Below, one piece after another: positions 35,863 to 52,801 of a stretch of DNA of 64,000 nucleotides; position 1 is the stretch's first letter; each line of letters starts with the position of its first letter. A model generated the notes under the pieces. It was not told where the DNA came from, did not search any database, and saw nothing but the letters and a program-made list of their open reading frames with translations. The stretch covers positions 1-64,000 of IMG/VR virus record IMGVR_UViG_3300008448_000046; one strand, given 5' to 3'. Made by a program: the position numbers and the translations under genes. The DNA comes from a virus.

Positions 35863-36213
35863 ATGGACGACAAAGTTCAAAAAGCGTATGAAGTTGCCAA
35901 TTATATGACAACTTTAGCTAATCAAAAGTCAATTTTAAAGCAAGAATTCAAACAAAATCTAGTTTATTTTTTCCAAGGGCACACGTTCCAAGTATCAAAA
36001 GATCTAATAACTTTTGTAAAAACTCTTATAGACTTGAAACAAGATACAGATGTGGTGCTTATAGATGATAACGACCTTCCCATCAAGATCAAAAATCTTA
36101 ATGTGTTTTTAGAAGATATTCTAAATCAGTACTTTATGGCAGTTAACAGTTATCAAACCAAATATCAACAATTAAAACTTTCTAGAAAGGTTGAGAGTTT
36201 AGTTCAATTATGA
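35863..36213 (+). CDS. Uncharacterised helical protein
   Basis: A 116-residue protein starting at MDDKVQKAYE; the ATG at 35863 follows GGAG in the T-rich tail of the terminator, whereas the longer frame would begin inside the hairpin. It looks mostly alpha-helical (AYEVANYMTTLANQKSILK; YFMAVNSYQTKYQQLKL) with a central beta-like segment DTDVVLIDDNDLPIKI. I do not recognise the family. Its stop overlaps the next start (ATGA), so it opens the accessory operon and may be a chaperone or partner for the transferase-like proteins that follow. Confidence 0.6.
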   Translation: MDDKVQKAYEVANYMTTLANQKSILKQEFKQNLVYFFQGHTFQVSKDLITFVKTLIDLKQDTDVVLIDDNDLPIKIKNLNVFLEDILNQYFMAVNSYQTKYQQLKLSRKVESLVQL

Positions 36214-37043
36214 CTAAGGGTGTCTTAATCTTTGCCTTCAATAACGAAACTATTGATTATGTTAAATTAGCCAAGCTGGCTGCTAGTAGAGTCGCACAAT
36301 TTTTAAAGGTACCTGTTACATTAGTTACTGATGTACAAGTTGATAAAGAAAATTTATTTGACAATGTTATTCTTTTAGCGAAAGAATTGGGTCAAAAAAG
36401 ATTATTTCATGACGGGTCTTTAAAAAACTTTGTCGATGAGTGGAATAATCTTTCTAGACACACCTGTTATGACCTAAGTCCTTACGATGAAACTTTAGTA
36501 ATTGACTGCGATTATATAATTAACTCTGATTTTTTAAATTGTTGCTGGGGTAAGACTAGCGATTTTTTAATTTTTAAAGATAGTTTTGATCTAGCTAGTT
36601 GGAGAAATATCAAAGAATTTAATCACATTAGTGAATATAGCATTGATTTTTATTGGGCCACTGTTTTTTATTTTAGAAAAACTGAAAAGAATCAATTATT
36701 TTTTAATTTAGTTGAATATATTAAAGATAATTGGAGCTATTATGTGATGATGTATCAAACATTAAGTTCAAATTATCGAAATGACATCGCGTATAGTATT
36801 GCGATACATATGTTTAATGGGTTTTCTAAAGAAAATTTTATAGAAATATTTCCAGCCAAAATAGCATATGTATTAGATAAAGATCATATCTTATCATTTG
36901 AAGATAATAAAATGACATTTTTATTAGAACATCCCTCGTCTGCTAATGAATACATTGTGTCCAAGACTGAAGGTATGGATGTGCATGTTATGAATAAACT
37001 TAGTTTACTACGATTAATGGACAATAAGGAATTATATGTCTAA
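36210..37043 (+). CDS. Glycosyltransferase-like protein (GT-A fold, first of pair)
   Basis: A 277-residue protein related in length and layout to the next gene. An N-terminal Rossmann-like start (KGVLIFAFNNETIDYVKLAK) is followed by PVTLVTDV, then LVIDCDYII with the DxD-type pair D99/D101 that binds metal and nucleotide-sugar in GT-A enzymes. A WRNIKEFNHISEYSIDFYW segment follows. No membrane segment or signal peptide is visible, so it would act in the host cytoplasm. The acceptor is unknown. Assignment rests on fold-like pattern and the DxD, not on a close match. Confidence 0.6.
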   Translation: MTKGVLIFAFNNETIDYVKLAKLAASRVAQFLKVPVTLVTDVQVDKENLFDNVILLAKELGQKRLFHDGSLKNFVDEWNNLSRHTCYDLSPYDETLVIDCDYIINSDFLNCCWGKTSDFLIFKDSFDLASWRNIKEFNHISEYSIDFYWATVFYFRKTEKNQLFFNLVEYIKDNWSYYVMMYQTLSSNYRNDIAYSIAIHMFNGFSKENFIEIFPAKIAYVLDKDHILSFEDNKMTFLLEHPSSANEYIVSKTEGMDVHVMNKLSLLRLMDNKELYV

Positions 37044-37890
37044 AGGTCATGTTATTTTTGCTCAAAATTCTGATGTAAACTATCTTAGACAGGCATACGC
37101 ACTTGCATTAAGTATAAAATTACATAATAAAATAAATCAAGTTTGTGTTATTACTAATGACAAAGTACCCGAGCACTATAAAAAAGTATTTGATTATATA
37201 GTCGAAATTCCGTGGAATGATGAAGCTAAAGACAGTGTTTGGAAAATTGAAAATAGATGGAAAATAATTTATGTAACACCGTTTAAAGAAAATTTAGTTT
37301 ATGACAGCGATATGCTATTGTTGAATTCTAATGATCATTGGTGGAATGTTTTAAAAAATAAAGATGTAGTGTTATCTAGCAACGTGTTTAATTATCGAGG
37401 TAATAAAATTACTTCTAATTATTATAGACAATCTTTTGAAGAAAATAAATTACCAAATACATATTTTGGATTACATTATTTCAAAAAAAATGAAAGTTCT
37501 TTTGAATTTTATAAATGGTTAGAAATTTTAACAAAAAATTATCAGACCTTTTATCAAAAATTTTGTCCTAGCACTCAACAAACTTGGGCTAGTATGGATG
37601 TTTCGTCGGCATTGATTTTAAAAATTTTAGATGTTGAGGAACAATGTACACTAAAAACTCTGTCAATCCCAACCTTTACACATATGAAACCAGCATTACA
37701 AGATTGGTCATTGTTGCCCTTTTCTTGGTATGATACTGTAAGTAGTGTGTTTACTGATCAATGCGAATTAAAAATAGGAAATATTTTGCAAAACGGTGTA
37801 TTCCATTATGTAGAAGATGAGTTTTTAACACATGAGATTATTCAAAAACTTGAAAATAAATTAAAGAAAAATGCCGAAGAAAAAATATAA
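37036..37890 (+). CDS. GT8-like glycosyltransferase (second of pair)
   Basis: A 284-residue protein overlapping the previous gene by 8 bases, with AAGGA before its ATG. It begins KGHVIFAQNSDVNYLRQAYA, has ALSIKLHNKINQVCVITND, and the DxD motif LVYDSDMLLL (D90, D92) typical of GT8 and related nucleotide-sugar transferases. TYFGLHYFKKNESSFEFYKW and TWASMDVSSALILKIL fit the acceptor half. The shared N-terminal pattern with the preceding gene indicates tandem duplication and divergence. Probable role: adding sugars to a phage or host-surface molecule. Donor and acceptor are unknown. Confidence 0.68.
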   Translation: MSKGHVIFAQNSDVNYLRQAYALALSIKLHNKINQVCVITNDKVPEHYKKVFDYIVEIPWNDEAKDSVWKIENRWKIIYVTPFKENLVYDSDMLLLNSNDHWWNVLKNKDVVLSSNVFNYRGNKITSNYYRQSFEENKLPNTYFGLHYFKKNESSFEFYKWLEILTKNYQTFYQKFCPSTQQTWASMDVSSALILKILDVEEQCTLKTLSIPTFTHMKPALQDWSLLPFSWYDTVSSVFTDQCELKIGNILQNGVFHYVEDEFLTHEIIQKLENKLKKNAEEKI

Positions 37891-38422
37891 TCCAACAGAC
37901 ATATTTTTATATTTTAATGATAGCGGAGTTATAGAATCTATAAGTCCTGAATTAGAAGAATCTAAAAAATTTATAGCTTTAGACTTTGACGAACAGCAAA
38001 AATTTTCAAGTAGTGGATTTCAAATTGGTAATTGTATGATAACTTTTGCCGATGACGGTAGTTATGAAATTAAAGAAGTTGAAAAATCTATACCTCCTAC
38101 AGTACACAGTTATATTCACATTATTAGACCAATGATTGATTCACGTGAAGAGTGCTTGATTCAAAGAATGTCCAATTGTTGGAGATTTAGACTTTCGCCT
38201 ACAGTTAAAAAAAGAATATTAAGAGATCAAAATAGGAATATAAATTTCTATATTTGTAAAAAACAAGACATACACTTTTTAATTAGAACAATAAGATTTC
38301 AATTATATGATTTAGTTGAAAATGACTTTATCGAAGTTCCGTATGCTTACGAAAACGAAAACGATTTAACAAAGTTTTCAATGGTAACAGAACAGTATTT
38401 TAAAACATATGGATTATTATGA
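37871..38422 (+). CDS. Uncharacterised conserved phage protein
   Basis: A 183-residue protein that starts 20 bases inside the preceding gene. The N terminus PTDIFLYFNDSGVIESISPE resembles a small beta-rich domain seen in proteins near marine phage tail genes, where a DNG/DSG turn precedes 'ISP'. A second part holds IIRPMIDSREECLIQRMSN and CWRFRLSPTVKKRIL. No catalytic motif is evident. It sits between two pairs of transferase-like genes, so it may bind or guide their substrate. That is context only. Confidence 0.58.
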   Translation: MPKKKYNPTDIFLYFNDSGVIESISPELEESKKFIALDFDEQQKFSSSGFQIGNCMITFADDGSYEIKEVEKSIPPTVHSYIHIIRPMIDSREECLIQRMSNCWRFRLSPTVKKRILRDQNRNINFYICKKQDIHFLIRTIRFQLYDLVENDFIEVPYAYENENDLTKFSMVTEQYFKTYGLL

Positions 38423-39348
38423 CTAAAACTTTTAACATTATTGATTGCGATGTGATATATTTGAGCTATGACGAGCCAAACGCTGAAAAAAATTATGCAG
38501 ATTTGCTAACTAAATGCCCGTGGGCAAAGCGTGTACACGGTGTTGAAGGATCTGATTCAGCGCACAAGGCCTGTGCAAAATTAGCAGACACCGAAAGAAT
38601 CGTTATAATTGATGGAGATAACATAGTAAATCCTAAATTTTTTGAACAAACAATTGAAATTGATTCAGAAGAGTTATATAATCGAAGTGTAGTGTCTTGG
38701 TGTGCATTAAATGTAGTAAACGGATTAATGTATGGAAACGGTGGGATCAAAAGTTGGCCCAGAGAGTTCGTGTTGAACATGAAAACTCATGAAAACGCTG
38801 ACGCTAATAATCCTCAAAGCCAAGTTGATTTTTGTTGGGATATTAATTACATAACATTAGACGAATGCATGAGTTGGGTGTATAATAATGCTACACCTTG
38901 GCAAGCATGGCGGGCCGGATTCCGTGAAGGTGTCAAAATGAGTTTGACACAAGGAGTTAAACTAGAAAATACTAAAAAATTTATTCACAGTGTACATAAA
39001 AAGAATTATCATAGATTGTTAGCCTGGTTAAATGTTGGATCAGATGTAGAAAACGGTTACTGGGCAATGTTCGGGGCAAGACAAGGATGTTATATGACAA
39101 ATTGTACTGATTGGGATTATGTAAATGTTAGAGATTTTAAATGGTTAAATCAATTTTGGGAAGATCAAAATGCAACACTGACTGAAGATCGTATGAAAGA
39201 TGAAGTAGAAATTTTAGGAGAAAAACTTAAAAGCGAATTAGATATTCCTGTGAGTAGTCCGCTTGATCCAATACAGAGTAAATTTTTTAAAGAAGTGTTT
39301 ACTAACCCTTCTAGAGTAACTACTGGTGCTAGAGTTGTTAAACGATGA
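38419..39348 (+). CDS. Phage glycosyltransferase-like protein (first of second pair)
   Basis: A 309-residue protein coupled to the preceding stop (ATGA). Conserved blocks are VIYLSYDEPNAEKNYADLL, AKRVHGVEGSDSAHKACAK and IVIIDGDNIV (DGD, D65/D67), then NVVNGLMYGNGGIKSWPRE and WQAWRAGFREGVKM. The same blocks, including RVHG and DGD, occur in the next gene. This family is widespread in marine T4-like phages and looks like a GT-A-type transferase, with the DGD pair as metal site. The substrate is unknown. The C-terminal 100 residues are specific to this copy. Confidence 0.62.
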   Translation: MTKTFNIIDCDVIYLSYDEPNAEKNYADLLTKCPWAKRVHGVEGSDSAHKACAKLADTERIVIIDGDNIVNPKFFEQTIEIDSEELYNRSVVSWCALNVVNGLMYGNGGIKSWPREFVLNMKTHENADANNPQSQVDFCWDINYITLDECMSWVYNNATPWQAWRAGFREGVKMSLTQGVKLENTKKFIHSVHKKNYHRLLAWLNVGSDVENGYWAMFGARQGCYMTNCTDWDYVNVRDFKWLNQFWEDQNATLTEDRMKDEVEILGEKLKSELDIPVSSPLDPIQSKFFKEVFTNPSRVTTGARVVKR

Positions 39349-40025
39349 TGTATGACATTGTGTTTATCAGCTACCAAGAACCTAATGCTGAGGAAAATTA
39401 CAAAAATTTACTAAACAACTTTCCAATGACAAAACGTGTACACGGAGTTAAAGGAATACATCAAGCACACATTGCCGCAGCACAGAAATGTTTAACTAAG
39501 ATGTTTTGGGTTGTTGATGGTGATGCAAAAGTGTTAGAAGATTTTAATTTTGATTATAATGTTTCTAATCAGTATCTAGAACATGTTCACGTCTGGAGAA
39601 GTCTAAATCCAGTTAACGGACTAGTGTACGGATACGGAGGAATCAAACTTCTCCCAAGAAAACTAACTTTAAATATGGATGTTTCTAAACCTGATATGAC
39701 AACTAGTATTAGTAGACATTTTGTTCCAGTTTCCCAGGTTAGTAATATTACTGTTTTTAATACTGATCCGTTTAATACATGGAAAAGTGCATTTAGAGAG
39801 TGTGTAAAATTAAGTAGTAAAGTAATTGATAGGCAAAAATCTAATGAGACTGAGGAAAGATTAAATGTTTGGAGATCAGTAGGATCTGATAAGCCTTATG
39901 GAGAATATGCAATTCGCGGTGCGCATGAGGGTACTAACTACGGAACTGAAAACAAAGGCAACGTTGATGCCTTAAAAAAAATAAACGACTTTATATGGTT
40001 AAAGGAAAAATTTGATGGAAATTAA
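39345..40025 (+). CDS. Phage glycosyltransferase-like protein (second of second pair)
   Basis: A 226-residue shorter relative of the preceding protein. It has IVFISYQEPNAEENYKNLL, TKRVHGVKGIHQAHIAAA, WVVDGDAKVL (DGD, D58/D60), NPVNGLVYGYGGIKLLPRK and WKSAFRECVKL. Two adjacent ATGs (39345, 39348) are possible; the first overlaps the previous stop. It lacks the C-terminal extension of its neighbour. Tandem duplicates of this family suggest two successive or alternative sugar additions. Function is inferred from motifs and setting. Confidence 0.63.
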   Translation: MMYDIVFISYQEPNAEENYKNLLNNFPMTKRVHGVKGIHQAHIAAAQKCLTKMFWVVDGDAKVLEDFNFDYNVSNQYLEHVHVWRSLNPVNGLVYGYGGIKLLPRKLTLNMDVSKPDMTTSISRHFVPVSQVSNITVFNTDPFNTWKSAFRECVKLSSKVIDRQKSNETEERLNVWRSVGSDKPYGEYAIRGAHEGTNYGTENKGNVDALKKINDFIWLKEKFDGN

Positions 40026-41124
40026 AGATTTGTTGGATAGATTTGAACTGTTATTCAATACTAATGAACGAATATCTGATTTACGCAGGTCTTATACTGA
40101 TAAAGACTTTTCTAGTATTTTTAGATTATTAGATAATGAAGAATTAAGAAAAGCTGTAATGGAGAAAAATCTACACAGTATTTTTAGACTTTTTGATGAG
40201 AATGAATATACTGAGGATATAAGAAAAGCAGTCATTGAAGAAAATATGTATAGTATTTTTAGAGTTATTCCTAATTTAGAAAACGATGGAATTGAAGAAT
40301 TAAGAAAAGCTGTAACTGAAAAAAATTTACACAGTATTTTTAGATTAGTAGAAAATGAAGAATTAAGAAAGGCAGTTGTTGAAGAAAATTTATATAGTAT
40401 TTTTAGGATTTGTAATAATGAAGAATTAAGAAAATTAGTACTAGAAGACAACGTTTGGAGTCTTTGGAAGATTTTATCTAACGAATTAGAAACACAGTTT
40501 GTTTCAGCATTTAAAAGTTTTTATATTGAACAAGTAAATTATGATGACGATTGTTTTTCTCGAGGACAACTAGCTAGCAAAATGTGGTTAATACATGAGC
40601 TAAAGAAACTTGATTTAGATTTAGGAACGGTATTTTTATGTGCAGGCTGGTACGGTACTCTTGCTGTAATGATGTTCGAAAGCAATTTAAAAATTAACAA
40701 AGTTAGAAGTTTTGATATTGATCCTAGTTGTGTTAAAATAGCAGAAAGATTTAATAAACCGTGGGAAATGGATTCGTGGAAATTTAAAGCTGGAATTGCT
40801 GACATTTTAAGCTTAAATTATAATAAGACAACTTACGATGTTTTTAAGCCAGACGGAACAACAGTAACTTTAGTAGATATTCCTAATACGATAATTAATA
40901 CTAGTTGTGAACATATAGGAAATTTTAATCAATGGTACGAAAGTATACCAGATGGGACACTAGTGATTTTGCAAACTAACGATTATTTTGACATTGAAGA
41001 TCACGTAAACTGTTCTAGTTCTTTGATTGACTTTACAGACAAAACTCCGATGAGAGATTGTCTGTACGAAGGTGAATTAGAATTACCAAAATATAGGAGA
41101 TTTTTGAGAATTGGATATAAATGA
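40015..41124 (+). CDS. Repeat-domain protein fused to a methyltransferase-like domain
   Basis: A 369-residue protein; the ATG at 40015 overlaps the previous gene by 11 bases. Residues about 23-158 are six degenerate copies of a 21-27-residue unit with consensus 'LRKAVxEeNlySIFRlxdNEE', probably short helical hairpins. The C-terminal half resembles a class I SAM-dependent methyltransferase as found in marine T4-like phages: SRGQLASKMWLIHEL, the glycine-type loop LCAGWYGTLAVMMFE, then VRSFDIDPSCVKIAERFN as the acidic strand-2 motif and AGIADILSL. I infer a methyltransferase carrying a repeat scaffold for substrate or partner binding. The repeat-plus-methyltransferase fusion is unusual. Neighbouring transferase and radical SAM genes suggest one pathway. 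Confidence 0.66.
   Translation: MEIKDLLDRFELLFNTNERISDLRRSYTDKDFSSIFRLLDNEELRKAVMEKNLHSIFRLFDENEYTEDIRKAVIEENMYSIFRVIPNLENDGIEELRKAVTEKNLHSIFRLVENEELRKAVVEENLYSIFRICNNEELRKLVLEDNVWSLWKILSNELETQFVSAFKSFYIEQVNYDDDCFSRGQLASKMWLIHELKKLDLDLGTVFLCAGWYGTLAVMMFESNLKINKVRSFDIDPSCVKIAERFNKPWEMDSWKFKAGIADILSLNYNKTTYDVFKPDGTTVTLVDIPNTIINTSCEHIGNFNQWYESIPDGTLVILQTNDYFDIEDHVNCSSSLIDFTDKTPMRDCLYEGELELPKYRRFLRIGYK
40081..40488 (+). repeat. Six in-frame imperfect coding repeats
   Basis: Units begin at 40081, 40144, 40219, 40300, 40363 and 40426. Spacings of 63, 75, 81, 63 and 63 bases keep the reading frame. The most conserved DNA words are TTAAGAAAAGCTGTA at the start and AGTATTTTTAGA in the middle. Third-position changes and insertions of 4 and 6 codons show divergence after duplication. 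Confidence 0.85.
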
Positions 41125-41335
41125 TTTTGATTTAAGAACTCTTCAAAAAGAATCTGCAAGAGCTCTAGTAGCTATAGAAGCTACCAACAATAATATTTTT
41201 AAATTTAACCAGCAGGCTCATCACGATAGCCAAAATTGGTATAAGGCTGTAATTGAATGGTATATCAACGAGTATGGTGGATTACCAAGTCATGTTGGTC
41301 CAGGAAAAGATGTTAAATTAGTTTTGGATAATTAA
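41111..41335 (+). CDS. Small uncharacterised protein with a TTG start
   Basis: A 74-residue protein. No in-frame ATG is available at the 5' end, and the TTG at 41111 overlaps the end of the methyltransferase-like gene by 14 bases. An N-terminal helix (ESARALVAIEATNNNIFKF) is followed by DSQNWYKAVIEWYINEYGG and LPSHVGPGKDVKL. Its last base is the first base of the next start codon. Size and position beside radical SAM genes make it a possible small substrate or scaffold protein, but it has no Cys and no clear leader/core division, so this is weak. Confidence 0.5.
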   Translation: MDINDFDLRTLQKESARALVAIEATNNNIFKFNQQAHHDSQNWYKAVIEWYINEYGGLPSHVGPGKDVKLVLDN

Positions 41336-41706
41336 TGTTAGAATTTACCAAGCCATTAAAAATTTATTTGTTTAAAGAAACTAACGAAGTTAGTTTAAGT
41401 ATTCTTGTCAGCTCTAACACAGTAAACACTTACATGTTAAAGGTGGAAGATTTTGAAAAAATATTAGGATTTTGGAATAAAAAAGGTGGATGTCAAATAC
41501 AAACTGATAATGCAGTTTGGCACATCCAATATAAAACTTCGGGACCTAGACCAGAGTCAAAACCTGTTGCATATGTTAGAATAGCAATATACTTAAAAAG
41601 TCAAGCATTTCATTATAGAGTAGATTACGATGATGTATATGAAATGCAAAAAGATTACTTTTATCAAAAAAATAATAAAATGTATTGGGATAAGGAAACA
41701 CAATGA
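41335..41706 (+). CDS. Uncharacterised protein
   Basis: A 123-residue protein coupled at both ends (TAATG-type overlap upstream, ATGA downstream). It looks like a compact alpha/beta domain: LKIYLFKETNEVSLSILVSS, MLKVEDFEKILGFWNKKGGC, VWHIQYKTSG and VAYVRIAIYLKSQAFHY. There is one cysteine. I do not recognise it. Immediate coupling to the radical SAM gene makes a role as its partner or peptide-recognition subunit conceivable, but this is only context. Confidence 0.5.
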   Translation: MLEFTKPLKIYLFKETNEVSLSILVSSNTVNTYMLKVEDFEKILGFWNKKGGCQIQTDNAVWHIQYKTSGPRPESKPVAYVRIAIYLKSQAFHYRVDYDDVYEMQKDYFYQKNNKMYWDKETQ

Positions 41707-42977
41707 ATCGAGAAGAATTTTTAAATAGATTTTCTCCAGGTACACATCCAACAATGTGTCCTTTGTTATTCAATCATTTTAGTACAGAAACTAAAGGACA
41801 AATAAAATTTTGTTGCGAAGCAAAGTATAATCCTGACATAGAAAAAGTTGACGGTAAGTCTACAAAGATTATAGAAATTTTTAATAATTCATACTACAAC
41901 GAATCTAGAAAACGGATGATAAATGGAGAAAAACTTTCAGAATGTGAATCTTGTTGGATCAAAGAAAAACAAGGATTAGTTTCTAAACGATTAGAAGAGT
42001 GGAATGTCTTTCAACAAAATTATGATACTTCATTACCTGAAGATTTTTCTAATTGGGAAAAGTTTGATACAAAGTTAGTACCCAGCTATTATAATTTGCA
42101 AGTAGCTAAAACTTGTAACTATGCTTGCATTATGTGTTCTACAGATTGGTCTTCTTTAATTACTTCTATAGGGCAAAAAATGGGAGAAGAAAAAAAGACA
42201 ATGTTGTTAAATCAACGATGGTGGTCTAATAATCCAGGAGAAGAACAATTAGATAAAAGTGAAACTTTTTGGGAAGGGCTTAAAGACATTGCAAATAAGT
42301 TAGAGCATCTGTATGTTACAGGCGGCGAACCTTTTATTATTAAACCTCTTTGGAACTTTATAACCTTTCTTGTTGAGCAAGGTTACTCATCAAACATTGT
42401 ATTCTGGTGTAATACAAATACGTCTCAGTTTAGCGAATACCAATTAAATCTTCTTAAAAGTTTTAAAAGTGTAGAATTAAATTTAAGTATTGATGCGTAT
42501 GGCGAATTGAATGAATATTTAAGAACGAGTTCAGATTGGAATAATATTGAAAAAAATGTTAACTTAGCGGTCAAACATGTAGACGATAATTTCCAACTTA
42601 CTTTAGTACCTGTAGTCAGCGGGTTAAATGTAAGATATTTAGATAATTTAATTTATTGGTGGAAAAAAACACTTGGAGATAAAAGATGTGTAATTAAACC
42701 AATTATACTCACTTGGCCACGATCAATGTCTATTAATGTTCTTCCAAAAAAATATATTATGAAGTCAAAACAATCTTTAATTAATGTTATTAACGATTGT
42801 AATTTAGATTATAAATCAGACTTTCAAAATGTTTTTGATTTATTAGACAATCACGATTTTAGTACAAGAGCAAATAATAAGTTAAAAGAAGAATTTCTGT
42901 ATTTTCAAGAAGCAGTAAATAAAGATTATTTAAAACAATTTAGTTATCTATTTGAACAAGATGATATACCACTATAA
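41703..42977 (+). CDS. Radical SAM enzyme with N-terminal auxiliary cysteines
   Basis: A 424-residue radical SAM protein. The cluster motif CNYACIMC (C138, C142, C145) is followed by a GGEP motif (VTGGEPFII) that binds SAM. An N-terminal extension carries extra cysteines (C19, C37, C38, C81, C84) spaced like an auxiliary cluster domain of the twitch/SPASM kind, but placed before the core. The layout is shared with the gene at 44160 and points to modification of a protein, peptide or sugar-linked substrate. An ATGA overlap with the preceding gene and a 17-base overlap with the next radical SAM gene show tight co-expression. Confidence 0.85.
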   Translation: MNREEFLNRFSPGTHPTMCPLLFNHFSTETKGQIKFCCEAKYNPDIEKVDGKSTKIIEIFNNSYYNESRKRMINGEKLSECESCWIKEKQGLVSKRLEEWNVFQQNYDTSLPEDFSNWEKFDTKLVPSYYNLQVAKTCNYACIMCSTDWSSLITSIGQKMGEEKKTMLLNQRWWSNNPGEEQLDKSETFWEGLKDIANKLEHLYVTGGEPFIIKPLWNFITFLVEQGYSSNIVFWCNTNTSQFSEYQLNLLKSFKSVELNLSIDAYGELNEYLRTSSDWNNIEKNVNLAVKHVDDNFQLTLVPVVSGLNVRYLDNLIYWWKKTLGDKRCVIKPIILTWPRSMSINVLPKKYIMKSKQSLINVINDCNLDYKSDFQNVFDLLDNHDFSTRANNKLKEEFLYFQEAVNKDYLKQFSYLFEQDDIPL

Positions 42978-44139: not shown

Positions 44140-44159
44140 CATAATAACTAAATATTTCC

Positions 44160-45566: not shown

Positions 45567-46455
45567 AGGTTTAAGAAGGGAGCATTATATGCTTCCAATG
45601 GATCATCCTATAGCAGTTGAAAATATGCGTAGGCATATTAGCCGAGCATCAAAATCTGAAGATGCAATGTTTTCAAAAGAAGAATTAGATTGGATTTGGA
45701 AATTTGCATTTGCCGGAGGCAAAGAAGTTAGAATGAATAAAAACGGAACTGTGTTAGTAGCAGGACAGTTACATGAAGTTTATTTAAAATTTAAAGATAG
45801 AATCGATCAGTGTTTAGGTATACCTGCTGAAAAAAGTCCACAAGTGGGCGGTAATTATTTTATTACTCCCCAACAATATGGATTACATAATGATAGTATA
45901 AGGCCTGAAGATTTTACAACTACATTTGATAAAGTCCCGTTGAATCACGAACAACGAAAATACACTTGTTGGAAAAATTGGTTGTTACCTTTATGGATAG
46001 GAACACATCTTAATGAAGAAGATGGTGGACAAATTGTATTCTTCGATCAGCGACATATTGACTGGGCGCATGTTTATAATGGTGGCGGTCTAGTTCCTAA
46101 TATTGCTAGTGTGTATAAAATTACCACTGATTACACTGAACTTCAATTCTATGACGGTCAAGGAACTGCTGTTCCTAAAGAAAACAATGCAACACCTTTT
46201 GATAAATCTGTTTTTGAGCAGGTAATGAATACTCCGTATGAAAGATTAAAAGGTTTAAGTGCTGAAACTATTTTAGATTGGGAACCAGGTAAACCTATGT
46301 GGTTCGATGCAGTACAGTTGCATAATACTAATGAAGGTACTAAGAGCAAAGGTAAAAAATTATGGAACGCTAAGATGGGTTTATTACTAACTTTCTTAGT
46401 TGAACTCGATGATGATTTACTTATAGAGTGGCGAAAAGAACAAGCTAAGATGTAA
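45553..46455 (+). CDS. 2OG-Fe(II) oxygenase-like protein
   Basis: A 300-residue protein with CAGGAG as ribosome site, 14 bases inside the previous gene. The metal triad of the 2-oxoglutarate/Fe(II) family is suggested by YGLHNDSIRP (H112, D114) and the distal histidine in FDAVQLHNTNEG (H257). LWIGTHLNEEDGGQIVFFDQ is a family-like core strand pair. The usual Arg that holds 2-oxoglutarate is not obvious; K274 may serve. Such phage oxygenases may hydroxylate proteins, peptides or sugars. It ends exactly where the inverted minus-strand block begins: convergent, with no gap. Confidence 0.72.
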   Translation: MEYTKGLRREHYMLPMDHPIAVENMRRHISRASKSEDAMFSKEELDWIWKFAFAGGKEVRMNKNGTVLVAGQLHEVYLKFKDRIDQCLGIPAEKSPQVGGNYFITPQQYGLHNDSIRPEDFTTTFDKVPLNHEQRKYTCWKNWLLPLWIGTHLNEEDGGQIVFFDQRHIDWAHVYNGGGLVPNIASVYKITTDYTELQFYDGQGTAVPKENNATPFDKSVFEQVMNTPYERLKGLSAETILDWEPGKPMWFDAVQLHNTNEGTKSKGKKLWNAKMGLLLTFLVELDDDLLIEWRKEQAKM

Positions 46456-47163
46456 TTATAGATAGGGTAGTAGTCTAGGAACAATTAATTCTTCGGCTAC
46501 TATCCTATTTCCTTGACTACTTAAATGGTGTCCGTCGTCTACAATATAAGAATTAAAATTGTCACCTAATTGTGTTTCAACATCAAAATCAAGTAGATCA
46601 GTTGTGTGAGCCTGAAAGATATTATTATGTTTTTCCCACCAGATATTCCGATGACTATAGATTATGTAAGGAGTATTAGATTTTTCTAATATTTTTTTAA
46701 TCGAACATATTTGACCAAAGTATAAACTTTGATCATCCCAGTCGTAAGAGTAACTAAGTTTAGCAGCCATTCGATAATCTCTGTTATGTTTATGCCAGAA
46801 TTGATCTATAGCTTTTCCGTAATTTGGATTCCAGAACACAAAACTTTTTCTTAAAGAAACATCACACTTATAAATGTTTGGATGAGAAACAGTAGGAGTC
46901 CAGTCTAAATTATAATGACCAGTTCTTATATGATGTCTACTGTCAGAAGTAACTTGAAATATAATAAAATCGTAGCCTTTACCTATCTCTGATTTTAGTA
47001 CTTCAAATTGTGTTCCAAGATCGCAACCACCATGGGATGCACTGTAATAGAGAACATCAACATTTTTCTCTTTTAATACTTCGACTGTATTTTCAGGTAC
47101 TCCTTTTTGTCCTTCGTGATTAAATTGACTCCAACTGCACCCTAAATGTAATATTTTTTTCAT
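46456..47163 (-). CDS. SGNH-hydrolase-like protein (first of pair)
   Basis: A 235-residue protein. The N terminus MKKILHLGCSWSQ has the nucleophile-type GxSxS position with Ser10, preceded by a hydrophobic strand. The C-terminal DDGHHLSSQGNRIVAEEL is the DxxH motif of SGNH/GDSL esterases. SASHGGCDLGTQFEVL may carry the second-block Gly. These enzymes usually remove or transfer acyl groups on glycans or lipids. The gene next upstream is a clear relative. It is the last gene of the inverted block. Confidence 0.7.
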   Translation of the reverse strand: MKKILHLGCSWSQFNHEGQKGVPENTVEVLKEKNVDVLYYSASHGGCDLGTQFEVLKSEIGKGYDFIIFQVTSDSRHHIRTGHYNLDWTPTVSHPNIYKCDVSLRKSFVFWNPNYGKAIDQFWHKHNRDYRMAAKLSYSYDWDDQSLYFGQICSIKKILEKSNTPYIIYSHRNIWWEKHNNIFQAHTTDLLDFDVETQLGDNFNSYIVDDGHHLSSQGNRIVAEELIVPRLLPYL

Positions 47164-47894
47164 TTTAATTTTTCAATAATTTTTGGTATTAAAACATTTT
47201 CAGCTATATATCTGTCACCGTTGGGCGACATATGAAATCCTCTGTCGATGGCAAATTTCTTAAAAGTTTCAATACCAATGTACTCGTTAACACAAAAGTC
47301 TAGTTCGTCGTATATTTCTTTAAGTACTAATTGAGATATCCGAGTTTTATCTACCATTTGTTTCGAATCGTGTGCATATATTAAAAACGGAATATTTCTT
47401 TTTTTAAGTAAATTTTTAATTGTTACTATTCTACTTAAAAAAATACTTTCCCAATTAAAGTCGCCCGCATTTAAAAGTTTGGCCATTTTTAAATATGTTC
47501 CTTTATTCGACAGATAAGGCCAATGTTGATTAATAATTTCTTTATGCAGCGGCATCCAAAAAATATAGTTTTTAATAAGCCAGTTTCGACATTGTACAAT
47601 ATTAGGATGACTATCTTCTTTTTCCCATACAATATCAGAGTCTAATAGTTGACAATGAAATCTGTCAAATGTAGTTACTTCAAATAAAACAAAATCAATT
47701 TTTTCTTTACCGTTTAAAATGTTTAATAAAATTTCAAATTGAACACCTAATCCACAACCGCCCATAGCTGTTGAATAATAGTTTACATCAATACCTCGAT
47801 TAATAAGGCCTTCTGTTACAAAAAATGGTAAGCTATGATTAGGTACACCATTTACTTCACTCCAACTACTTCCAAGATGCAATATATTCTTCAT
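47160..47894 (-). CDS. SGNH-hydrolase-like protein (second of pair)
   Basis: A 244-residue relative of the gene at 46456, coupled by a 4-base overlap. MKNILHLGSSWSEVNG gives the Ser motif, YYSTAMGGCGLGVQFEILL the glycine block, and DRGFHMSPNGDRYIAENV the DxxH end. The shared YYS.....GGC.LG.QFE and ISHPN/SHPNIV segments show tandem duplication. The reaction is likely hydrolysis or transfer of an acyl or sugar-linked ester. Substrate unknown. Confidence 0.7.
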   Translation of the reverse strand: MKNILHLGSSWSEVNGVPNHSLPFFVTEGLINRGIDVNYYSTAMGGCGLGVQFEILLNILNGKEKIDFVLFEVTTFDRFHCQLLDSDIVWEKEDSHPNIVQCRNWLIKNYIFWMPLHKEIINQHWPYLSNKGTYLKMAKLLNAGDFNWESIFLSRIVTIKNLLKKRNIPFLIYAHDSKQMVDKTRISQLVLKEIYDELDFCVNEYIGIETFKKFAIDRGFHMSPNGDRYIAENVLIPKIIEKLK

Positions 47895-48606
47895 ATGTTT
47901 TTTTATAACTTTCTATAACTAAATTTCTGTACTCTTTATATTGTTGAACTGGCCATCCATGTACAATAATATGTATTCTGGGAGTTTTACTATTGTTCCA
48001 AACAGCATGATTCGTGCTTATATCTATTAATCTAACATCTCCAGATTTCCATGGTATAACTCCGTAGTTTTCCATACCAAATTCGCAACCAACTGGATTA
48101 TTTAACGCTATATTAATTGCTTGTAACTTTCTTTTATTGTTATCTCTATGAGGCATAATGTAGCCATCTGGTTCTAAAAGCATAAATCGTACCCTGAGAA
48201 ATTTATCTAAAGGCCAACAACTTTTTAACCACATAGTTGTTATAGGACATTTGTCGGCTATCTCAGTCCAATGATAGTCGGGAAGATCTTTTAAATTTTC
48301 GTATTGTTCGTCACCTTGAGTAATATGTTTTCCTCGTCCGTGAATAACAAGACTTTTCCACCCTCTGTGATCTTCGCCTTCGTCTCGATGAGAATAAAAT
48401 TCGTCAAGAAGAATTTCAGCTTCTTGATACATCTGTTCATGGGGAATCTCAACATTTAATCTAAGAGTTCTTAAGTTTGATTCTTCAATAATCCATTTTA
48501 ACTGAGCATCTAAATTTAGATGTTTTGGTATCTCAGTTAAATTATGATAATGATTTTCTTCTTTCCTTTTCTCGAAGAATTCCGAGATATTCAGTGTAGT
48601 ATTCAT
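47866..48606 (-). CDS. Aspartyl/asparaginyl beta-hydroxylase-like 2OG-Fe(II) oxygenase
   Basis: A 246-residue protein. The double-stranded beta-helix metal motif is IMPHRDNNKR (H153, D155), with the distal histidine H200 in DISTNHAVWNNSKTPRIHIIVH and the 2OG-binding R210 in the same segment. The pattern matches the Asp/Asn hydroxylase family better than the 45553 protein does. It overlaps the following SGNH gene by 29 bases and its own upstream neighbour by 65 bases, long for a real overlap, but no later in-frame ATG preserves the domain. It would hydroxylate a protein, peptide or small molecule. Substrate unknown. Confidence 0.78.
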   Translation of the reverse strand: MNTTLNISEFFEKRKEENHYHNLTEIPKHLNLDAQLKWIIEESNLRTLRLNVEIPHEQMYQEAEILLDEFYSHRDEGEDHRGWKSLVIHGRGKHITQGDEQYENLKDLPDYHWTEIADKCPITTMWLKSCWPLDKFLRVRFMLLEPDGYIMPHRDNNKRKLQAINIALNNPVGCEFGMENYGVIPWKSGDVRLIDISTNHAVWNNSKTPRIHIIVHGWPVQQYKEYRNLVIESYKKTYEEYIASWK

Positions 48607-49894
48607 ATAATTTTTGTCTCCAAGGAAAGTTGAATTCTGTATCAGGATCTAAACTAACATCTTTAACATGCATTAACGCATATCCTCTTGTCGATGCTTC
48701 GCTAGTAGGTAACATTCCTAAAAAATAACTATCATTTTTTGCTAGTCTTTCTGCACTAGCTAATGTTTTTAACATTAAATTAAAATGAATTTGACTGTAC
48801 AAGTATGCTGTTTTCCTATAAGACAGAATATTGCTAAACGCATACAATGTATTACCATTCATCCTATTAATTAAATCTTCTATTTCAAAGAAGCTTTCTT
48901 TGAAATAGTTACAATTCAGTTCTAGTAATCTAAACTGCATTTCGGAATAAGGTTCTACAAGCCCGTTTAAAAATTCTTGTTCTGATTTTCTAATAGACTC
49001 TTGATTGCTAACTTGAAGATTGTACCCGCTAGAAAAACATAGTTGGTCATAATCTTTTCCGATATAATTGTCTAAAACATTTTTTGTAAAATTGATTGCA
49101 GATTGACTAATATCTCTAAAATCTACAGTAGTAGCATTAGGGCACTTGTCAATAATCTGTAAGGCTTGTAGTCCGTTTGCGGGAGTTACAATTCTTTTAA
49201 TTTGCGGGAGTTCAAATTTTACAATTGGTTCATTTGTACAATTAAAGATAGTGTCGTCAAACGTACATTCTATACGTAGATAAGATCCGTACTTTAAAAC
49301 TAGATCATCGTATAGGTAAAACTTATGCTTTCTTTCTTCTGAAGTCCACGGCCTAATTTTAAATCCGTGTTCTAACAATTTACTAATAATTAATCCGCCT
49401 GGCTTTATCTTTTTATAGGTCTTTGTTCCATCACCTTTATCAACTGATAAAGGAGTGTGGTGATCATGAAAATTGTTCTCGCTCCTACTGATATTTGTAC
49501 ATGTTTGCTCTCCAGGAGAATTATACATAGGAGATCCGGATTGTTTCCAATCTTTAACATCTAATATAAAACATTGATTGTGTAGTTCGTAGTATTCTTC
49601 ACCTTTGTCTAAAAGATGTCCAATTAGAGAATACTCTGGATTTTTAGAAACTAACTGTGCTAACCATATTGGATCAAATGTGTTTCCTGGTCTTGTAAAA
49701 ATGACTTTAGGAGCTGTTTCTGTTTGTAAACTTTTAAATGCATCGTCGTAAGATAAAAAGTATTTGTAAAGCATGTCGTGCCTTACAGATGCTTCTAGAA
49801 GATTATAACCAATTTCCTGACCTAAGGTGTCTTTATAATCCTTGTTATCATCAACAATGTATATGATGTATGTATTTTTAACTAGTTTTCTCAT
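48542..49894 (-). CDS. Uncharacterised 450-residue protein
   Basis: First gene of the inverted block, read from the TATAAATA at 49942-49935. The N-terminal third has YIIYIVDDNKDYKDTLG and PKVIFTRPGNTFDPIWLAQL. The middle has HNQCFILDVKDWKQSGSP and a GGLIISKLLEHGFKIRPW stretch, and further on TPANGLQALQIIDKCPNATT followed by VDFRDISQSAINFTKNVLD, which faintly recalls a methyltransferase core. The C terminus is helical (RLAKNDSYFLGMLPTSEAST). Similar proteins occur in marine T4-like phages without assigned function. I do not name one. Confidence 0.6.
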   Translation of the reverse strand: MRKLVKNTYIIYIVDDNKDYKDTLGQEIGYNLLEASVRHDMLYKYFLSYDDAFKSLQTETAPKVIFTRPGNTFDPIWLAQLVSKNPEYSLIGHLLDKGEEYYELHNQCFILDVKDWKQSGSPMYNSPGEQTCTNISRSENNFHDHHTPLSVDKGDGTKTYKKIKPGGLIISKLLEHGFKIRPWTSEERKHKFYLYDDLVLKYGSYLRIECTFDDTIFNCTNEPIVKFELPQIKRIVTPANGLQALQIIDKCPNATTVDFRDISQSAINFTKNVLDNYIGKDYDQLCFSSGYNLQVSNQESIRKSEQEFLNGLVEPYSEMQFRLLELNCNYFKESFFEIEDLINRMNGNTLYAFSNILSYRKTAYLYSQIHFNLMLKTLASAERLAKNDSYFLGMLPTSEASTRGYALMHVKDVSLDPDTEFNFPWRQKLYEYYTEYLGILREKERRKSLS

Positions 49895-49934
49895 GGGTTC
49901 TTCAAATTATGTTGGCTAGTTTTTACTAGCTAAA

Positions 49935-49942
49935 TATTTATA
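49935..49942 (-). promoter_or_regulatory. Perfect T4 late box for the inverted block
   Basis: TATAAATA on the minus strand (49942-49935), an exact match to the T4 late consensus, about 40 bases before the ATG at 49894. The gap to the divergent gene at 49977 also carries CTAAATATTT on the plus strand, which could serve that gene weakly. Confidence 0.72.
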
Positions 49943-49976: not shown

Positions 49977-50531
49977 GTGAGCTCCAAAATACTAATAACC
50001 GGAAATAAAAATTTTGGATTGTCTTCTGAACTATTTAAAATATATCCGGACGCTACTTTTGTATCAAGGACAACTGGCTACGATTTAACCTCAGCGGATG
50101 GACAGTTATCTCTAGCCAAAAAAGTTTTAGATTACGATATTTTTATAAATTGTTCAGCACTATGGAAATTTAACCAAACTGTACTACTAGATGCAGTTTA
50201 TAAATCTTGCATAGAAAACAAAAAAGATCTAAAAATAATTTGTGTAGGATCAACAACTGATCGAGTTAAAAAAGGCGGAGCATGGTTATATAATGCAGAG
50301 AAAAAAGCTTTGAGAGATTATTGTAATACACTTTCGATGAACGGTGTATGGCAAGGAGGTCCTACAGTCACTTTAGTAAGTTTTGGTAGTTTATCTAATG
50401 TACAACATAAACATCCAACTAGGACTTGTATGGATATTAGTCTTGCAGCAAATTACATAAAATGGGTTATTGAACAGCCTAAAGAATTTCATATAAACGA
50501 AATAAGCATAGACCCAATTCAGAAAGTTTAA
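49977..50531 (+). CDS. Short SDR/epimerase-like NAD(P)-binding protein
   Basis: A 184-residue protein with a GTG start at 49977, supported by AGAGGAAG just upstream. KILITGNKNFGLSSELF gives the Rossmann start (G9, G14). IFINCSALWK and IICVGSTTDRV are the following strands with the catalytic-type Ser, and YNAEKKAL (Y105, K109) is the YxxxK motif of the short-chain dehydrogenase/reductase superfamily. It is shorter than classical members (about 250 aa) and may act on a nucleotide sugar. One base separates it from the radical SAM gene. Confidence 0.72.
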   Translation: MSSKILITGNKNFGLSSELFKIYPDATFVSRTTGYDLTSADGQLSLAKKVLDYDIFINCSALWKFNQTVLLDAVYKSCIENKKDLKIICVGSTTDRVKKGGAWLYNAEKKALRDYCNTLSMNGVWQGGPTVTLVSFGSLSNVQHKHPTRTCMDISLAANYIKWVIEQPKEFHINEISIDPIQKV

Positions 50532-50532: not shown

Positions 50533-51693
50533 ATGGAAAAATCAGAATACGATTTTAAAAAAATACCGTTTGAAAATATAGTTCGTGTTGGACAACGAAA
50601 TATGTTATATAGAGACCTTTTTACAGTAAGTTGGTTATTAGGCAGATATTGTAACTATCGTTGTAGCTATTGTTGGCCTTATGCACGGAGTGATAAAAAA
50701 GATCATAGACCAACAGAATTATGTATTAAAACTGTAGACGAAATTAAACGACAGGCTAGAGAAAGAGGATTTAATAGTTTTCATTTTAGCCTTAGTGGAG
50801 GCGAACCAACCTTTCATCCAGGGTACATAGATATTTTAAATCATTTGAATAATGATGCCCCAAATACAAATTACACCAGTGTTCATATGACAACTAATAT
50901 GAGCAGAACTGTAAAATGGTTTAACGATGAATATTGTCCTGCTGTTAGTAAATTCCACCGTGCAAGTATAACTGCTAGTCTACACACTGAACATGTTGAC
51001 ACTAAAGAGAAGCTAAAAGAATTTGGAGATAAATTAGAACTTTGTCAAGACCATGATGTACAAGTTACAATTAATATGGTCATGGTACCAGAGTGGTTTG
51101 ATAAAGATTATGAAAACGCTCTTTACTTTCATAATAGGGGTATTAATGTTACATTAAAGCCTCAAAGCGATCCCACTGCTAGTCGGGTAGTAGATGGTTA
51201 TACTTCTGAAATGTTAGAAAAGTTACATAACGGAATGCCTCAACGGGCGTTTACTGAAGCTAAAGCTGCCACTGCTAAACTAGTCTCAAGACCATTTCCT
51301 ACTTTTGTTAAGATGCCTGATCCAATTTATAAAGCAGAAAATCAAAATATCCCACAACACTTTCAAGTAGAATTTATAGATAAAGAACAAAAGGTGTGGT
51401 ACATGGATCAGGCCGAACGATTTAATGCCTTTAATTTTAACAAATTTGAAGGATGGGAATGTAGTAGTGGATATCGAGGTATTATTATACGCGAACCAGA
51501 CGGAAGCATCAAACGAAGTTATAGCTGTCACGATGTGCCATTGGGAAATATAGAAACAGGTTTTAGATTATTTGATAGTCCTAAACCTTGTATTACTCCA
51601 AGTTGTGTAAGTAGTGCCGATAGTAAAATTCCTAAAAGAGCACCTAATACTGAACTACCGTTATTTCCTGGAGATAAAACTTATGCTAAGTAA
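50533..51693 (+). CDS. Radical SAM enzyme with SPASM-like C terminus
   Basis: A 386-residue protein, fourth radical SAM enzyme of the island. GRYCNYRCSYCWPY gives C40, C44 and C47; FSLSGGEPTFHPGY is the SAM-binding GGEP. The C-terminal cysteines (WECSSGYRGIIIRE, then SYSCHDVPLGN and CITPSC) are spaced like an auxiliary cluster. It differs from the twitch-type pair at 41703/44160 and is read after the SDR-like gene. SPASM-type members commonly mature peptides, but no precursor peptide with a clear core is visible nearby. Confidence 0.86.
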   Translation: MEKSEYDFKKIPFENIVRVGQRNMLYRDLFTVSWLLGRYCNYRCSYCWPYARSDKKDHRPTELCIKTVDEIKRQARERGFNSFHFSLSGGEPTFHPGYIDILNHLNNDAPNTNYTSVHMTTNMSRTVKWFNDEYCPAVSKFHRASITASLHTEHVDTKEKLKEFGDKLELCQDHDVQVTINMVMVPEWFDKDYENALYFHNRGINVTLKPQSDPTASRVVDGYTSEMLEKLHNGMPQRAFTEAKAATAKLVSRPFPTFVKMPDPIYKAENQNIPQHFQVEFIDKEQKVWYMDQAERFNAFNFNKFEGWECSSGYRGIIIREPDGSIKRSYSCHDVPLGNIETGFRLFDSPKPCITPSCVSSADSKIPKRAPNTELPLFPGDKTYAK

Positions 51694-52801
51694 ATCTCAT
51701 TTAAACGTACTACAAGAGAGAGTTAAAGATAAAGATTGGGTATGGTTAAACAGAGACATAGTTCATCTTCTAGAAGGTAGAGGAAAACGTAAAATAGGCG
51801 TAATTAATTTTGATGTAGCAGCTTTAAAATATTGGGATAACCTTGGCAGGATAAAACTTTTTATTGTTGGCCATAGCATAAAGAAATTAAAAGAATACCC
51901 TAAACTTTTATTAATGGTCAGAAATGAAGCGTTACCAAATTACAGATGGAAAGAAATAGTAGACTTTATTTTAGAAATAACAGGAAAAAATATTGAAGAT
52001 ATAATGGTTGTTGATGCAGGATATACTACAGACGGAAGTTACCCTCACATAGGTACAAATCCTTTTGTTATTAATCCTGTATTGGATCTAACAAGTGTAG
52101 TGCGAGCACTAACGCCTATTTCTCAAAGAAAAACTTTTTACAATTCTTTATCAAGAAATCCAAAAAATTTTAGATTATTATTTACTTTAGAATTAGTTAA
52201 ACGAGACCTTTTAAATTTAGGGTGTGTGAGTTTTGGAGTTTCAGACGATTACGGGGACGAATTATATAAAGAATTAATACCTGCAGAATACACACATTTG
52301 TTTCCAATGTATGCTGACGGAATAGTAAAAAGAAATCAGTATGTAGTCACTTACCCGCCCGAAGCAATAGATTCAATAGTAAAAGTAGTTTTAGAATCTA
52401 CTTATGACGATTCTATTATACCTGGAACAAAATGTACTAACTACTGTGGAGGTATTTTTAGTGATAGAGTATTTTTAACAGAGAAAACGTTTTTTGCTTT
52501 TCAATCTTATCAGATACCATTATTTGTAACAGTTAAAGGGCATGTGCAAGCTGTTAGGGATCACGGGTTTGATGTCTTTGATGATATTGTAGATCATTCT
52601 TACGATTTAGAACCAAATCCGGGTAATCGAATAAAAATGGTAGCAGAAGAGCTAGAACGTCTTTTAAAGAACAAAGATTCCATAATGTCCGTTACTAATC
52701 TCAACGAGAGGCTAAAAAAGAACAATCAGCATAGACAGATTGTTCAAGAGCAGATCGGAAAAAATCTTAAAGAAAAACTTACTGAATGGTTTAATCAGTA
52801 A
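51683..52801 (+). CDS. Uncharacterised protein with a possible transferase motif
   Basis: A 372-residue protein; the ATG at 51683 (MLSKSHLNVLQ) overlaps the previous gene by 11 bases, while the longer frame lies inside that gene. The C-terminal half has VFLTEKTFFAFQSYQIPLF, then VQAVRDHGFDVFDDIVDHSYD. The 'EKtf....g.Pl.....l..lr..GFd.Fd..iD.sYD' pattern recurs in marine phage proteins and is reminiscent of the donor-binding part of GT-B or fucosyltransferase-like enzymes. DxD is absent. It ends inside the 3' end of the convergent thyX gene (11-base overlap). Confidence 0.62.
   Translation: MLSKSHLNVLQERVKDKDWVWLNRDIVHLLEGRGKRKIGVINFDVAALKYWDNLGRIKLFIVGHSIKKLKEYPKLLLMVRNEALPNYRWKEIVDFILEITGKNIEDIMVVDAGYTTDGSYPHIGTNPFVINPVLDLTSVVRALTPISQRKTFYNSLSRNPKNFRLLFTLELVKRDLLNLGCVSFGVSDDYGDELYKELIPAEYTHLFPMYADGIVKRNQYVVTYPPEAIDSIVKVVLESTYDDSIIPGTKCTNYCGGIFSDRVFLTEKTFFAFQSYQIPLFVTVKGHVQAVRDHGFDVFDDIVDHSYDLEPNPGNRIKMVAEELERLLKNKDSIMSVTNLNERLKKNNQHRQIVQEQIGKNLKEKLTEWFNQ

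Follow-up and report, generated by a model that had tools for sequence, protein, structure and literature searches.

We analysed a stretch of viral DNA of 64,000 nucleotides, comprising positions 1 to 64,000 of the IMG/VR record IMGVR_UViG_3300008448_000046 (hereafter the window), which carries an island of enzyme genes at 36210-52801. An earlier sequence-only reading had proposed a gene island here that encodes one complete pathway. The island itself was recovered as 19 open reading frames (ORFs), mostly overlapping and open under table 11, which run from GTa1 to u395 and include three paralogue pairs (GTb1/GTb2, SG1/SG2 and rS1/rS3). As detailed below, the region consists of a fixed core and interchangeable cargo, and its 19 genes do not form a single unit. 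The core genes, together with u74 and the two further radical SAM genes, are the following, with group counts referring to 101 groups of related viral loci.

38419..39348, plus strand: GTb1, core GT-A-fold glycosyltransferase candidate, from its model (family in 94/101 groups)
39345..40025, plus strand: GTb2, core paralogue of GTb1 (34% identity, E 2e-36)
40012..41124, plus strand: repMT, core protein modelled as N-terminal helical repeats and a C-terminal class I methyltransferase
41111..41335, plus strand: u74, conserved 74-aa protein between the methyltransferase and radical SAM genes (53/101 groups)
41703..42977, plus strand: rS1, N-twitch radical SAM (NF033640, 271.8 bits)
42952..44139, plus strand: rS2, core radical SAM (PF04055, E 1.1e-8; MCL family in 99/101 groups)
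44160..45566, plus strand: rS3, core N-twitch radical SAM (NF033640, 430 bits; family in 91/101 groups)
50533..51693, plus strand: rS4, fourth radical SAM (PF04055, E 1.9e-15; 51/101 groups)

The related loci were collected by scanning viral sequences with rS2 and with rS3 as bait, and from these two scans the best 80 of 189 and the best 80 of 179 confirmed loci were used. One locus was common to both, leaving 159 distinct loci that formed the 101 groups (90% identity over half of the shorter sequence); L160 and L161, which stem from the window's own record, were removed before counting. Since rS2 and rS3 served as baits, the counts of 99/101 and 91/101 describe the bait families. Gene families are MCL clusters based on BLAST scores, the ORFs of relatives were at least 55 aa long, and the virus records are fragments. 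Radical SAM labels of the clusters derive from the window members and from family searches of a few, and the SGNH and PP-loop labels in relatives were assigned by motif, the phage PP-loop match lying below the Pfam cut-off. A GTb-family gene was located directly 5' of repMT in all 74 testable phage groups, the other 27 of the 101 being without a separate methyltransferase ORF that has enough neighbours, and an rS2-family gene followed within three ORFs after repMT in 70 of these 74. The recurring gene order was orf128-GTa1-GTa2-(u)-GTb-GTb-repMT-u74-rS2-like-[variable]-SDR-rS4-thyX. In a second clade, the series GTb-GTb-GTb-repMT-rS2-like was preceded by carbamoyltransferase, GatZ-like and shikimate-dehydrogenase-like genes, and also by cupin and NTP-transferase genes that scored just below the Pfam cut-off. 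The methyltransferase was a separate ORF in 80 groups and was fused to GTb in 7, and an N-type radical SAM was fused to a PP-loop-like domain in 2; other fusions joined an SGNH-like protein to an N-type radical SAM (1 group), C- and N-type radical SAMs (1 group), and u450 to OG2 (2 groups).

A further scan baited with repMT returned at least 598 stretches, of which 80 loci were kept; 78 were new, and these gave 59 non-overlapping groups, 36 with enough flanking sequence. GTb was present in 35 of these 36 fresh loci, a C-type radical SAM in 34, an N-type radical SAM in 33 and u74 in 25, and GTb, C and N occurred all together in 32; in L298, a 342-kb contig, the methyltransferase stood alone. 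The proposal that the island genes co-occur as a unit thus held for GTb, the methyltransferase, the rS2 family and the N-twitch radical SAMs, for which the 32 repMT-baited loci answer the objection that the genes occur independently of each other, but not for the remaining genes, which are sporadic. Among the 101 groups, many of whose loci end short, u183 and u395 were each found in 1, the SGNH family in 3, u450 in 6, u123 in 10, OG2 in 13 and OG1 in 27, and because these genes occur in so few groups we describe the region as a core with cargo; a single complete pathway that takes in every gene is not supported. Elsewhere in relatives the cargo includes carbamoyltransferase, PP-loop-like and sugar-nucleotide-like genes. 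In the 70 best-covered loci the number of radical SAM-family ORFs ranged from 3 to 13 with a median of 7, the maximum being reached within about 21 kb, and the 20 whole virus records that were searched contained 6-19 PF04055 matches each.

The GTb1 model, built from a 52-row alignment, had a pLDDT of 91.0 and showed a GT-A fold, with a best fold match of Z 10.2 (root-mean-square deviation, rmsd, 3.2; 140 aligned residues) and Foldseek rows that include RmlT, WrtF and SunS. The DxD residues D65 and D67 were invariant across the 52 rows, and GTb proteins are predicted to transfer sugars. LH3 and mimivirus R699 were also among the GTb1 fold rows, but a collagen-type fibre modification was rejected as a candidate, as no Gly-X-Y repeats were seen by eye in three fibre ORFs. 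The repMT model (46 rows) had a mean pLDDT of 94.3, and in it helical repeats lead into a class I methyltransferase (Rossmann-type) fold that matched NodS (Z 16.4, rmsd 2.6, 168 aligned), in agreement with the repeat-methyltransferase predicted before. The four radical SAM enzymes were likewise borne out: PF04055 was above its cut-off in rS1-rS4 (4/4), and each translation contains a CxxxCxxC motif. The NF033640 family (N_Twi_rSAM; curated cut-off 170 bits) was passed by two of the four, rS1 and rS3, while rS2 (53.1 bits) and rS4 (42.5 bits) failed. A C-terminal SPASM match of rS2 was weak (17.5 bits, below the cut-off), and over its radical SAM part rS2 weakly matches the solved NifB and MoaA. 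Searching by sequence for solved relatives yielded none for the GTb profile or rS3, and the methyltransferase profile gave nothing convincing against solved structures (4 rows, best E 0.38). In a check for precursors of ribosomally synthesized and post-translationally modified peptides, which covered relatives' ORFs from 55 aa upward, u74 was unfit and was ruled out as a peptide precursor, being conserved over its whole length in a 54-row alignment.

A profile search of genome contigs with GTb gave 56 loci. Ten of these (L165-L168, L170, L171, L173, L174, L177 and L200) carry phage traits, namely fibre and GTa genes, and are probably phage contigs binned with bacteria. Phage-like contigs filed as bacterial or archaeal metagenome-assembled genomes (MAGs) also include L169 and L213, whose rS2-like row falls in the phage clade. 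A quick tree was made from 117 rS2-like proteins. One starred clade (99) united 97 phage rows with the three MAG rows L167, L169 and L213, which are probably phage; the other bacterial rows fell outside it, and two very long-branched phage rows (L110 and L132) were placed elsewhere. The bacterial loci L190, L191, L194, L197, L199, L176 and L208 have GTb and/or repMT near N, C or R4 radical SAMs, and their genomes are all labelled Bdellovibrionota. L190, L197, L254, L256, L270 and others combine GTb and/or the methyltransferase with C-, N- and R4-type radical SAMs within about 20 kb, and the neighbours in L197 (a 328-kb contig) and L254 (a 2.04-Mb contig) include GT2 glycosyltransferases, flavin amine-oxidase-type and multi-transmembrane proteins. 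repMT was found in at least 37 of 368 Bdellovibrionota genomes, with at most 6 candidates scored per genome. Going by these sequence matches, the core recurs in some Bdellovibrionota genomes as a diverged version with a different gene order. Isolates of Roseibium, Tateyamaria and Photorhabdus have GTb without repMT and at most a weak radical SAM match. Lone GTb relatives were observed in Roseibium, Tateyamaria, Ruegeria and other alphaproteobacteria (L178, L179, L180, L182, L185, L186, L187, L189, L192, L193 and L196), and no repMT or radical SAM neighbours were found at these alphaproteobacterial loci.

The accessory genes of the island, together with the small gene that precedes it, are listed below.

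35827..36213, plus strand: orf128, small conserved gene 5' of GTa1 (family in 32/101 groups)
36210..37043, plus strand: GTa1, glycosyltransferase-like (DxD by eye; family in 32/101 groups)
37036..37890, plus strand: GTa2, glycosyltransferase-like (DxD by eye; family in 34/101 groups)
37871..38422, plus strand: u183, unknown (clusters within the window's own phage group only)
41335..41706, plus strand: u123, unknown accessory gene
45553..46455, plus strand: OG1, putative 2-oxoglutarate (2OG)-Fe(II) oxygenase (motif by eye)
46456..47163, minus strand: SG1, SGNH-like hydrolase (motif by eye)
47160..47894, minus strand: SG2, SGNH-like hydrolase (motif by eye; 35% paralogue of SG1)
47866..48606, minus strand: OG2, Asp/Asn beta-hydroxylase-type oxygenase (PF05118, Asp_Arg_Hydrox, E 3.3e-17)
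48542..49894, minus strand: u450, unknown (fused to OG2 in 2 relatives)
49977..50531, plus strand: SDR-like (short-chain dehydrogenase/reductase) Rossmann protein (motif by eye; 28/101 groups)
51614..52801, plus strand: u395, unknown (window's own phage group only)

Of the four transferase-like proteins proposed earlier, GTb1, with its GT-A fold and DxD, and its paralogue GTb2 gained support, and GTa1 and GTa2 show only a DxD by eye; Pfam and PHROG searches were empty for GTa1, and GTa2 weakly matched phrog_1903, a family of unknown function. The assignment of two 2OG-Fe(II) oxygenases stood by family match for OG2, and for OG1 it stayed at the by-eye motif, with no family match in the searches run. 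The two SGNH-like proteins and the SDR likewise kept their by-eye motifs, and no Pfam family was above its cut-off for OG1, the SDR or SG1/SG2. A tblastn search with u183 matched 20 loci, 9 of them 100% copies and the others at 22-32% identity. Family searches with u395 were empty, and by eye its C-terminus is, we assume, fucosyltransferase-like. A second Asp_Arg_Hydrox gene is located off the island (L161:11300-11785, minus strand).

The IMG/VR record that holds the window has 76,387 bases, and it is a fragment, since an IMG/VR contig of 180,861 bases (L028, L081) carries the island genes at 99-100% protein identity. Judged by its gene content, the source phage is a T4-like myovirus, with gp46/47-like genes, a gp55-like late sigma factor, baseplate hub and wedge genes, and fibres. 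Its DNA polymerase most resembles the enzymes of T4-like jumbo phages that infect Sinorhizobium and Agrobacterium, the nearest named relative in a tblastn search of phage records being Sinorhizobium phage Phosso (469 kb; 50% identity). PHROG tail and collar-fibre matches cover 28917-31277, virion-structural and weaker fibre matches cover 31274-34717, and the PHROG search was empty for the ORF at 34730-35785. Further upstream, a 4599-aa virion protein is encoded at 14444-28243 (plus strand), the best stretch of which, 776-1779, matches phrog_10938. The island is followed by thyX and early genes, and the early region also contains a QueE-like radical SAM gene (59992-60849, minus strand) and a GTP cyclohydrolase I gene (62198-62962, minus strand), possible parts of a 7-deazaguanine pathway. 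An ORF at 62992-63789 (minus strand; 265 aa) resembles UDP-glucose/GDP-mannose dehydrogenases, with Pfam covering the N-terminal and central domains only. A search of the 64-kb window turned up neither tRNA nor tmRNA genes. Beyond it, the record encodes a protein with a GDSGGFQ motif, presumably typical of TGT/DpdA enzymes (L161:5213-6745, minus strand; record 69213-70745); it had no match in Pfam, PHROG or PDB, and relatives occur in 16 of 19 records searched, its own included. Relatives of the protein at L161:2177-3274 (minus strand; record 66177-67274) are annotated as glycosyltransferase in phages Phosso and PAC2. In Pseudomonas jumbo phages, e.g. PA5oct, the genes for such relatives of the two proteins adjoin, making the two a candidate pair for base exchange plus glycosylation. 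The features that bear on the timing of expression are as follows.

4269..5096, minus strand: gp55-like late sigma factor (T4) (phrog_12791, E 4.2e-77)
28917..35785, plus strand: tail-fibre/collar-type virion genes 5' of the island (PHROG matches)
33196..33205, plus strand: late-promoter-like word ATAAATATTT, before the fibre gene at 33224
44148..44157, plus strand: late-promoter-like word CTAAATATTT, before rS3
49930..49942, both strands: two-way, palindromic late-promoter-like site TAAATATTTA, read at 49931 (plus) and 49940 (minus), between u450 (minus) and SDR (plus)

The gp55-like sigma factor implies T4-type late promoters. The word TATAAATA, which we take to be the T4 late promoter word, is depleted in the window, with 1 match against 12.5 expected (standard deviation 3.25), and this sole match (49935-49942, minus strand) lies 40 bases 5' of u450. 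The motif TAAATATTT, chosen after looking at the sequence, is read four times over both strands at three window sites, two of the four readings being one palindromic site, and always in the gap before a same-strand gene, namely the fibre gene at 33224, rS3, and SDR/u450. In the 100 other groups (that of L081, which is the window's own phage, belongs to the 101 but is outside the 100 loci of the word counts), 54 of 217 occurrences of ATAAATA were in upstream gaps, which make up 0.79% of the sequence, compared with 1/120 to 2/80 (0.8-2.5%) for four control words. These gap sites, from 35 groups, precede 12 N, 5 R4, 3 C and 2 u450 genes, among others. We infer from these words that the island is transcribed late.

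Transmembrane (TM) segments were predicted by crude hydropathy. Of the 1146 phage island ORFs, 1124 had no segment and a single one had at least two, and none of the 21 window proteins reached two; with 3-kb flanks included, 6 of 1496 phage ORFs had two or more. Because multi-TM ORFs are so scarce, the phage islands give no sign, by this measure, of an integral-membrane flippase, polymerase, ligase or transporter. Scored in the same way, 11 hand-picked bacterial clusters had at least two segments in 5 of their 117 ORFs, which are spread over 5 of the 11, and with 3-kb flanks multi-TM proteins were present in 9 of these 11 clusters versus 6 of 98 phage groups. This recount under equal rules narrowed the contrast between phages and bacteria and left the odds of the readings discussed below unmoved.

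Taken together, these results make it probable that the island introduces an unusual modification during late infection, the virus particle being the likeliest target. The reading that we tentatively prefer, and hold to be possible rather than probable, is that of a late-expressed, soluble tailoring pathway beside the tail-fibre genes that decorates a virion protein. The fixed core of GTb GT-A proteins, repMT, often u74, and rS2-family and N-twitch radical SAMs would link a sugar, or several, to an acceptor in the cytoplasm; the likeliest acceptor is a virion protein synthesised simultaneously, for example a tail fibre. The sugar or its attachment residue would then be altered by the methyltransferase and the radical SAMs, and the cargo (further radical SAMs, oxygenases, SGNH-like proteins and the SDR) would add or remove decorations, so that the particle surface is diversified. 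The genes that precede the core in the second clade and the GT2 and flavin amine-oxidase-type neighbours of bacterial L197 and L254 also speak for this reading. An order in which the sugar is transferred first and is then methylated and tailored by radical chemistry is suggested by the GTb-methyltransferase fusions, which adjoin two radical SAM types, and late timing combined with a soluble set of enzymes points to a cytoplasmic acceptor made at that time, and thereby to a virion protein. Virion proteins that carry glycans are known from mycobacteriophages (Freeman 2023, as cited in PMC12619734). We consider unlikely the bolder version of this reading, in which a conserved GT-A/GT-A/methyltransferase/u74/radical-SAM machine, shared with Bdellovibrionota through ancient common ancestry, would produce radical-tailored glycans or glyco-amino acids of a new class on virion proteins, and exchangeable cargo of radical SAMs and oxygenases would generate surface diversity.

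Several observations weigh against the decoration of a virion protein. No obvious acceptor repeat was seen in the three fibre ORFs inspected. The GTb1 fold rows also contain nucleotidyltransferases, and because they mix these with glycosyltransferases, sugar transfer by GTb is stated here as a prediction. The extended motif TAAATATTT fails across relatives, with 12 of 162 occurrences in gaps and in 8 of 100 loci. Linkage in bacteria is patchy: a GTb or radical SAM neighbour was present in 8 of 20 repMT-centred Bdellovibrionota stretches (12.6-20 kb), which were picked from the 37 genomes by score and by absence of an earlier locus there. According to passages of PMC7029224, two pelagimyophages with highly similar tail fibres have islands that differ by radical SAM cassettes, which argues against a tight coupling to fibres. 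The multi-TM proteins near the bacterial relatives suggest an envelope product there, SPASM radical SAMs and an Asp/Asn hydroxylase would equally fit a protein modification free of sugar, and the QueE-like and GTP cyclohydrolase genes of the genome make DNA modification a live theme.

Close behind the virion-protein reading, and in our estimate rather unlikely, is a module that alters an envelope glycan of the infected cell (O-chain or similar) via a host lipid carrier and export, and so blocks phage binding to cells or debris. It matches the interpretation published for pelagimyophage islands in the passages of PMC7029224 used here, and it agrees with the GT2 and flavin amine-oxidase-type genes beside bacterial L197 and L254 and with the multi-TM proteins of several clusters, but the near-absence of multi-TM ORFs from phage islands, with or without flanks, speaks against it, and the expression suggested by the late-promoter words would be late for the exclusion of rivals. 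Improbable, in our view, is a sugar-free modification of a protein or ribosomal peptide, of the kind carried out in SPASM radical SAM maturation, with the GT-A proteins in another role. The radical SAMs do match several peptide maturases, all below cut-offs, and the Asp_Arg_Hydrox gene and the PP-loop-like domain fused to a radical SAM would suit such chemistry, but no candidate precursor was seen among ORFs from 55 aa upward in relatives, u74 being conserved along its length, and the tightest-linked partner of the methyltransferase is GTb with its invariant DxD. We regard as more improbable still that the module makes a hypermodified DNA base. The QueE-like and GTP cyclohydrolase I genes, the TGT/DpdA-like gene (by motif) in 16 of 19 records, and a PP-loop protein adjoining bacterial L197 that matches QueC would all agree with this, but the three phage genes belong to the early region and are not part of the island, PF00303 (thymidylate synthase and hydroxymethylase, not distinguished) was found in 5 of 19 records, none of them the fragment of the window, and the long contigs of L197 and L254 carry GT2 genes. 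A mere gathering place for unrelated accessory genes with no common product, as the sporadic SGNH, u450, u183, u395 and u123 genes might suggest, is very improbable overall, being disfavoured for the core by its order, fusions and recurrence in bacteria, and possible for the cargo; a small remainder of the odds goes to readings not foreseen here.

Phage-encoded radical SAM chemistry on sugars or glycoproteins would be a new mechanism of surface variation and a source of new enzymes, and it would help to account for the up to 19 radical SAM matches in some phage records. The fixed core, its order and fusions, the two folds and the bacterial counterpart turn an enzyme island into one testable pathway. 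The openly licensed literature searched yielded no description of this core or its fusions, nor of the late-promoter words or the counterpart in Bdellovibrionota. The type of island is known, since the CP220/CPt10 module and the host recognition cluster have been published, and to call it an undescribed system, as the sequence-only reading did, was too strong: radical SAM modules were published in 2010 (PMC2853527), a genome rich in radical SAM genes in 2017 (PMC5332604) and tail-fibre islands with glycosyltransferases and radical SAM cassettes in 2020 (PMC7029224), and the passages of this literature drawn on here, which concerns radical SAM-rich phages since 2010, offer only tentative functions.

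A megablast search with 36000-53000 found no whole-island likeness to named phages, and tblastn searches of phage records with rS3, GTb1 and rS4 gave nothing at 1e-5; the search itself works, as a DNA polymerase control found 2593 records. For the T4-like Campylobacter phages CP220 and CPt10, passages of PMC2853527 describe clusters that are interchangeable between related phages and contain an amidinotransferase and five radical SAM genes. Their module is likewise a block of several radical SAM genes with variable content; in CP220 a baseplate lysozyme gene is located upstream and two nucleotide-diphospho-sugar transferase genes follow. rS2 matches the module weakly (27%, E 4e-11), and no Pfam match to an amidinotransferase was found among the window island proteins. 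According to passages of PMC5332604, a marine T4-like genome of 183 kb contains 12 radical SAM genes. The island of Pelagibacter phage Mosig EXVC030M (53-72 kb) is also fibre-adjacent, with three MoaA-like radical SAMs, Asp_Arg_Hydrox and a carbamoyltransferase, and the methyltransferase adjoining the latter is related to repMT (27%, E 1e-7), Mosig being the only record with a methyltransferase relative among 50,697 phage records (tblastn); instead of a GTb1 relative, none of which was found at 1e-5, it has an ArnB-like aminotransferase and nitroreductases. Vibrio phage K566 has three annotated radical SAMs among hypothetical proteins at 156-174 kb, one of which weakly matches rS2 (E 3e-4), but it gave no match to GTb1 at 1e-5 and none to the methyltransferase at 0.1. 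Passages of PMC7029224 describe the host recognition cluster of pelagimyophages, with fibres, glycosyltransferases and radical SAM cassettes, and suggest that it serves to avoid coinfection. Like this cluster, known from pelagimyophages and cyanomyophages, the island is hypervariable and associated with tail-fibre genes, glycosyltransferases and radical SAM cassettes; no fixed core of two glycosyltransferases, a methyltransferase and a radical SAM is described in those passages, and the cluster is defined by position (VrlC to gp14) and variability, whereas the window island ends at thyX and early genes. The Bdellovibrionota clusters share GTb and/or the methyltransferase, together with C, N and R4 radical SAMs, with the phage core, and differ from it in gene order and, in several, in the presence of GT2, flavin amine-oxidase-type or multi-TM proteins.

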